From Candidatus Zipacnadia bacterium (GTDB taxonomy: Bacteria > Armatimonadota > Zipacnadia > Zipacnadales > UBA11051): a stretch of DNA of 32,418 nt. A model generated the notes under the pieces. It was not told the DNA's origin, did not search any database, and worked only from the letters and a program-made list of their open reading frames with translations. The DNA lies in the NCBI GenBank assembly GCA_029821145.1, contig JALGTY010000008.1, positions 1-32,418 of the forward strand. The letters run 5' to 3'. This document shows positions 1 through 4,817 of the stretch, in pieces. Every line of letters starts with the position of its first letter. The first letter of the stretch is position 1. Position numbers and translations under genes: made by a program.

Positions 1-2247
<2,247 letters not shown>

Positions 2248-2495: not shown

Positions 2496-2946
2496 GCGAG
2501 AAGCGGGAGGCGGGAAGCGAGAGAGTCAATGCCAGTTACGAGCCAGGACGCTGATGCGCTTGGCCAGTACTGTATACGCCTCAGAGAGCTTTTCCCACTC
2601 CTCTGTGTCAATGTACTCGAGTTCCTTGCACACATCAAGCAGTGCAATCATCTCATTGCAAGACCCTACCCCAGTGTCGAGGTAGGCCCTGAAGTCCTTC
2701 ACTGATCGTTTCTTGCCATAGCCCTCAGCAATGTTAGCCACTATTGACACTGCCGCGCGACGCATCTGACTCGCTAGCCCATACCGTTCACTCTCGGGCA
2801 GCCCCTCAACCAATCGGTAGCTACACGTTACCAGTTCGAGACCTTGCTGATAGACTTCCAGATCGCGGAAGCTGCGAATGGGCGTACTCATCTTCAACTC
2901 TTGCCTCCAGCCTTCCGTTTCCCGTTTCTCGCCTCCCGCCTCTCGC
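2496..2946 (-). mobile_element. Intervening-sequence (IVS) element in the tRNA-Ile/tRNA-Ala spacer
   Basis: The ends 2496-2524 and 2918-2946 are inverted copies of each other. As RNA, the 5' arm (starting GCGAGAGGCGGGAGGCGAGA) pairs with the 3' arm (ending CCCGCCTCCCGCTTCTCGC) over 29 positions: about 24 Watson-Crick pairs, two G-U and three A-C mispairs. The stem encloses an S23-type protein gene in the same direction as the rRNA. This is the architecture of 23S rRNA intervening sequences: a long terminal helix with an enclosed S23 gene. Here it fills almost the whole spacer, 10 nt from tRNA-Ala and about 9 nt from the end of tRNA-Ile. No convincing target duplication is visible. Mobility is inferred from the known family. 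Confidence 0.8.
2526..2897 (-). CDS. Four-helix-bundle protein, S23 / 23S rRNA intervening-sequence protein family
   Basis: A 123-residue protein, normal for the family. It shows the signature blocks: FRDLEVYQ near the N-terminus, then YGLASQMRRAAVSIVANIAE and GYGKK near the middle, then KDFRAYLDTGVGS. It is predicted all-helical. Family members are encoded in 23S intervening sequences of Leptospira and Coxiella, and as orphans elsewhere. Their biochemical role is unsettled; pentameric barrels and RNA association have been proposed. The first codon is TTG (2895-2897), 6 nt after a GGAGG. An ATG two codons later (2889-2891) lies 12 nt from the same GGAGG, so TTG has the better spacing. It is transcribed with the rRNA, which would give very high mRNA dosage unless the element's stem is cut or the upstream terminator acts. 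Confidence 0.92.
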   Translation of the reverse strand: MKMSTPIRSFRDLEVYQQGLELVTCSYRLVEGLPESERYGLASQMRRAAVSIVANIAEGYGKKRSVKDFRAYLDTGVGSCNEMIALLDVCKELEYIDTEEWEKLSEAYTVLAKRISVLARNWH

Positions 2947-2955
2947 TTCCATCAG

Positions 2956-3032
2956 TGGTGGGCAATCCTGGATTCGAACCAGGGACCTCGCCCTTATCAG
3001 GGGCGCGCTCTAACCAACTGAGCTAATTGCCC
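2956..3032 (-). tRNA. tRNA-Ile (anticodon GAT)
   Basis: The cloverleaf has acceptor GGGCAAT/ATTGCCC, D-arm TAGCTCAGTTGG, anticodon loop CTGATAA (GAT), T-arm GGTTCGAATCC and an encoded ACCA; 77 nt. It is the first spacer tRNA after 16S. The intervening element begins a few bases after its CCA. Confidence 0.97.

Positions 3033-3284: not shown

Positions 3285-4817
<1,533 letters not shown>

Follow-up and report, generated by a model that had tools for sequence, protein, structure and literature searches.

The window, by which we mean the whole 32,418-nt stretch of DNA that was analysed, is one entire contig (C374) of a 603-contig MAG. Its minus strand carries an rRNA operon with a 16S rRNA gene (3295-4817), tRNA-Ile (GAT, CCA encoded; 2956-3032), tRNA-Ala (TGC; 2410-2485) and a 23S rRNA gene (1-2247) truncated by the contig end. 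The 470 nt that separate the CCA end of tRNA-Ile from the first base of tRNA-Ala (2486-2955) enclose, also on the minus and hence the sense strand of the operon, a complete S23 (four-helix-bundle) gene of 121 aa (2526-2891; ATG at 2891, stop at 2526, with a TTG at 2897 as a possible alternative start). The first-pass annotation had described a complete S23 gene on the rRNA strand, squeezed between two tRNAs, and both points are borne out: the ORF matches Pfam PF05635 (106.7 bits, E 8.6e-31) and TIGR02436 (E 2e-28), all of the genes named lie on the minus strand, and the stem described below ends 1 nt from the 3' end of tRNA-Ile and 2 nt from the 5' end of tRNA-Ala. The reading frame is unbroken, conserved residues are present, and the protein has a relative in the PDB (2gsc). 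No group I or group II intron RNA family matched within the window, and identity as a self-splicing intron was rejected on this ground; a search for phage carriage gave no match either.

The gene is enclosed by two inverted repeat arrays. The 5' arm of the transcript (2896-2954) consists of about seven GARRCGR heptads (period 7, 6.9 copies; GAAGCGA GAGGCGG GAGGCGA GAAACGG GAAACGG, continuing) and pairs with the 3' arm (2488-2524), in which sequence, repeat period and folding reveal about four complementary heptads. Over the 29 positions of 2496-2524 and 2918-2946 there are 24 Watson-Crick, 2 G-U and 3 A-C oppositions, exactly the count given earlier; 17 of the pairs are contiguous (2930-2946 with 2496-2512), and the stem runs 7 bp further outward, to 2488 with 2954. 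The heptad units and the outer stem that reaches both tRNAs had gone unnoticed in the first-pass annotation, which had proposed folding the element as a check. When this was done, the transcript strand gave a z of -3.7, and the arm duplex, at -67.1 kcal/mol, was more stable than any of 2000 dinucleotide shuffles (-45.4 ± 4.5). The hairpin is not due to chance. A GGAGG (2904-2908, minus strand) within one heptad of the 5' arm is, judging from the sequence, a possible ribosome-binding site that could serve S23 translation. Elsewhere in the MAG the GARRCGR heptad is matched only at chance level, which says little about the true host, the MAG being mostly another organism.

The rRNA region was best matched by three genomes of one genus, G008, G018 and G021. 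On the 16S side, the alignment with G008 (90.3% over 2007 nt) ends at 2954; on the 23S side (91.1% over 1254 nt, 96.6% across tRNA-Ala) it ends at 2486, and identity over the whole sequenced part of the 23S is 92.7%. The locus is syntenic, and each of the three congeners has a class-III aminotransferase gene on the same side. In the comparison with element-less spacers that had been suggested for this locus, 86 nt (G008), 12 nt (G018) and 96 nt (G021) lie between tRNA-Ile and tRNA-Ala instead of 470 nt, and the other spacers read hold 5-77 nt. The accompanying suggestion, a search of related spacers for S23 genes between tRNAs, returned no second copy, either in the rRNA operons that were read or across 291 genomes of the same phylum; many of the latter are drafts whose rRNA operons may be unassembled, making the absence weaker than the count suggests. 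The best match to the window S23 in these 291 genomes was a 23S copy in G047, at 42%.

The spacer element is thus sporadic and absent from close relatives, and by this sequence comparison the insertion is younger than the split from G008, G018 and G021, or else was lost in all three. No clear target-site duplication was found at the spacer insertion. The Ile-Ala gaps of G008 and G021 hold short-unit repeats of their own, which are also dispersed elsewhere in those genomes (fold against shuffles, z -3.1 and -1.7, respectively), and the site is therefore not a clean before-and-after pair. The aminotransferase of the contig is 83-86% identical to that of the G008/G018/G021 genus and at most 70% to that of the genus to which the MAG is assigned; the rRNA likewise places the contig in a genus other than that of the rest of the MAG, and the window contig (1-32418) is probably mis-binned. 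Separately, helix 45 of the 23S rRNA (window 838-967) bears a long hairpin extension without an ORF. It was considered as a relic of the spacer insertion and rejected, since the congeners have the same hairpin.

ORF-bearing intervening sequences (IVSs) of rRNA are a known kind of element, exemplified by those in 23S helix 45 of Coxiella burnetii and Leptospira, and the window element resembles them in its sense-strand S23 gene of about 120 codons, its overall length (~430-470 nt), its complementary arms, which pair into a stem of 24-28 bp, and its sporadic distribution. In Coxiella, heptameric repeats (GACAGAT) adjoin the ORF, the IVS is cut out by RNase III, and the S23p protein is probably not produced (PMC4990558). 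The window element differs in its location, the 16S-23S spacer between tRNA genes rather than a helix of mature rRNA, where an IVS replaces a hairpin loop inside the 16S or 23S gene and is excised by RNase III without ligation; excision of the window element would be by analogy. Genes of the 'four helix bundle' type (TIGR02436/PF05635), dispersed in operon spacers or beside tRNA and SRP RNA genes, share the protein family, the inverted heptad arms and the sense orientation, whereas the window copy groups with the lineage borne by rRNA and RNase P RNA and lies within an rRNA operon. STRRs are made of short tandem units of 7 nt and are described as gene-free repeats; they have such units and RNase P RNA as a site in common with the present family, but here the units form inverted arms around S23. 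The Avd protein of diversity-generating retroelements has a four-helix-bundle fold related to S23 (PMC10053308). Identity with it was rejected, as no match to the reverse transcriptase family PF00078 was found on the window contig or elsewhere in its MAG (G000).

Taken together, we think it likely that the spacer copy is a non-ancestral insertion of a sense-strand S23 element with inverted short-repeat arms, which behaves like an rRNA IVS. At 41-48% identity, near relatives of the window S23 are encoded at the helix-45 position of 23S rRNA (Alkaliphilus, Sporomusa, Lentibacillus and G047), within the 16S rRNA of two Parcubacteria, within the RNase P RNA of two Clostridia and, in Chloroflexi, between the genes of operons (ahcY-metK and others, named by inspection of ORF translations). 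The earlier idea of an IVS-like unit placed in the spacer therefore stands as far as a sense S23 of a lineage that includes rRNA-borne copies is concerned; it is incomplete in that such units are not confined to rRNA, as these other sites and the wide dispersal of the family show. In a tree of 59 rows, one branch (support 98/99) sets off every one of the 18 rows of the window's lineage, whether borne by rRNA, RNase P RNA, the spacer or operons, and the window S23 belongs to a group of 7 rows that also holds the 16S copies and Chloroflexi operon copies (98/95). Forcing it to join the dispersed copies of its own order comes at a cost of 11.6 log units, yet this placement is not rejected (AU p 0.26).

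Several of these loci are of interest in their own right. In the two Clostridia MAGs (L073:4823-5595, JAAXZE010000104.1; L076:3413-4034, JAAZJU010000155.1) the S23 element lies within the RNase P RNA gene, where it takes the place of the P12 loop and its heptad arms prolong P12; the L073 RNase P RNA is intact apart from the insert (model 1-367). In the Parcubacteria (L088:3812-7148 and L081) an S23 element sits early in the 16S rRNA, together with other large insertions, and the 16S of L081 additionally holds a group I intron. Plasmids are among the carriers of S23 genes, and plasmid AZO_p2 of Azospirillum lipoferum (L249:4001-4351) has an unannotated heptad-armed S23 gene in the 23S of a plasmid-borne rRNA operon. 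An S23 gene adjoins SRP RNA and/or a tRNA-Ser/Arg cluster in several families (L012, L013, L022, L025, L029, L154-L157, L169), with repeat units of ~9-12 nt that vary from species to species but mostly pair within each species. One scan of named genomes gave 44 S23 loci.

Arm anatomy was surveyed over 127 S23 loci with both flanks from several phyla, orthologues and near-copies included, so that the loci are not independent. The complementarity of a locus's own flanks had a median of 18, whereas flanks mis-paired across loci gave 8, and 78 of the 127 exceeded the 99th percentile of the mis-paired null; in direct orientation only 8 did. Significant short-period repeats, with p taken from 100 single-base shuffles that do not preserve dinucleotides, were present in 97 upstream and 85 downstream flanks. 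Control flanks had them in 16 of 123 cases, and ORFs in 2 of 135. Lags of 7 and 14 accounted for 61 of the 97 upstream and 58 of the 85 downstream flanks. The arms are inverted about the gene, and the unit is common to both arms of an element and different between elements, a pattern to which the window element, with its ~7-nt tandem units, conforms. At the SRP RNA/tRNA locus, pairing averaged 22.3 between an element's own arms and 11.1 between arms of different species, and the corresponding values for the 23S copies were 18.3 and 10.0; in Opitutia and Acidobacteria, which are shallower sets, own and cross pairing were about equal. The paralogues L135 and L143 share the same unit and are only 78% identical, and no recent pair of S23 copies with clean ends was found. 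Between tandem neighbours, S23 was in sense orientation 45 times and antisense 3 times (ORF-length heuristic, binomial p 1e-10, related loci included); tRNA neighbours in the surveyed loci were all on the S23 strand, and one S23 copy on a Nostoc plasmid is an exception, antisense to its neighbours.

These regularities can also be read as those of a host gene, with a useful S23 protein being kept in stable-RNA operons, the arms acting as a processing signal that frees the mRNA, and the spacer copy being a relocated host gene. In several families of the order, S23 has been retained near SRP RNA and/or the tRNA-Ser/Arg cluster, which agrees with this, as do the arms there, which mostly stay complementary despite the change of unit, and the intact spacer ORF with its conserved residues. 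We nevertheless regard it as rather improbable: at least one S23 gene, mostly outside rRNA, is present in only 56 of 101 relatives, with copy numbers from 0 to 13, the congeners are without the spacer copy, and S23p had no growth effect in E. coli (PMC4990558).

The arms might instead be foreign to the element, dispersed short-unit repeats having pre-existed in the spacer before an S23 gene entered between them. In three congeners (G008, G021 and G026; loci among L207-L235) a 10-nt unit, CAGAYAACGR, forms direct arrays scattered through many spacers between genes and between tRNAs, with 36, 37 and 70 sites, respectively, against 4-8 for a reversed-pattern control, and in G008 and G021 the Ile-Ala gap itself is among these spacers. 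However, the dispersed arrays inspected are direct, while the S23 arms are inverted and share their unit; S23 copies within a single genome (G006) have differing units; and the window heptad is above chance only at this locus in the MAG. We consider such an origin of the arms unlikely.

An assembly chimera, in which rRNA fragments were joined around an unrelated S23 gene, is conceivable for a mis-binned metagenomic contig that ends inside the 23S, and the first-pass annotation had named such a misjoin as a finding that would undo its reading. It is largely refuted and, in our judgement, very improbable, because both flanks match the same congener with equal identity and synteny, the breaks coincide precisely with the tRNA ends, and the two tRNAs anchor the stem symmetrically. 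Between transfer to a new site and an ancestral spacer form, the two origins raised at the outset, the congener gaps and the other spacers favour later insertion; that the spacer form was the source of 23S IVSs is scarcely credible, having nothing beyond the location itself to recommend it, as no second spacer copy turned up in the spacers read or the 291 genomes and the window S23 is nested, not basal, in the tree.

Under the favoured reading of a later insertion, an element made up of one four-helix-bundle gene flanked by two inverted arrays of short tandem repeats would have landed in the spacer of the rRNA operon, exactly between its tRNA-Ile and tRNA-Ala genes. Co-transcribed with the pre-rRNA, its arms would form an outer stem of 24 bp (7 bp plus 17 contiguous bp) with its base at the tRNA ends. 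RNase III, the gene for which is present in the MAG and in all three congeners searched, would most likely cleave this stem and free the S23 stretch, leaving the tRNA ends to be completed by RNase P and 3' nucleases; these enzymes could also suffice for tRNA maturation without any cutting of the stem, on which the first-pass annotation had made both tRNAs depend. The element would be neutral to the host because continuity of the transcript would be dispensable at the point of insertion. We infer that S23 protein would be produced from the spacer copy; production at rRNA level, as first proposed, is less certain in view of the probable lack of S23p in Coxiella. The protein may have a role in the element's own upkeep or spread. 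The distribution of the element and its absence in the congeners suggest that it may be mobile. A local reverse transcriptase was considered as mobiliser and rejected on the example of G006, which has seven S23 copies; within the limits of MAG completeness, neither G006 nor G014, also with seven copies, has a match to PF00078, and local reverse transcription is therefore not needed there.

The spacer copy thus appears, from sequence comparison, to be one landing site of a wider family of sense-strand, hairpin-armed elements. As a tentative extension, to which we give somewhat less than even credence, S23 elements might constitute a phylum-crossing class of sense-strand transcript invaders (of 23S, 16S, RNase P RNA, the rRNA spacer, tRNA/SRP clusters and operon spacers), with a hairpin of ~7-nt units that change in step on both arms, and with a protein that recognises or maintains the hairpin and brings about spread with neither a reverse transcriptase nor a known transposase. 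A limited search of the open-access literature turned up no description of an S23 gene in a tRNA spacer, of RNase P RNA as a site for an S23 element or of the general heptad-arm anatomy. Until now the IVS has been regarded as a curiosity of 23S and 16S helices, and the S23 protein has been unexplained for decades. The copies in the spacer and in RNase P RNA, with the same heptad hairpin anatomy, suggest a single family that enters transcripts where continuity is dispensable, and what S23 binds and how the unit moves now become testable questions.
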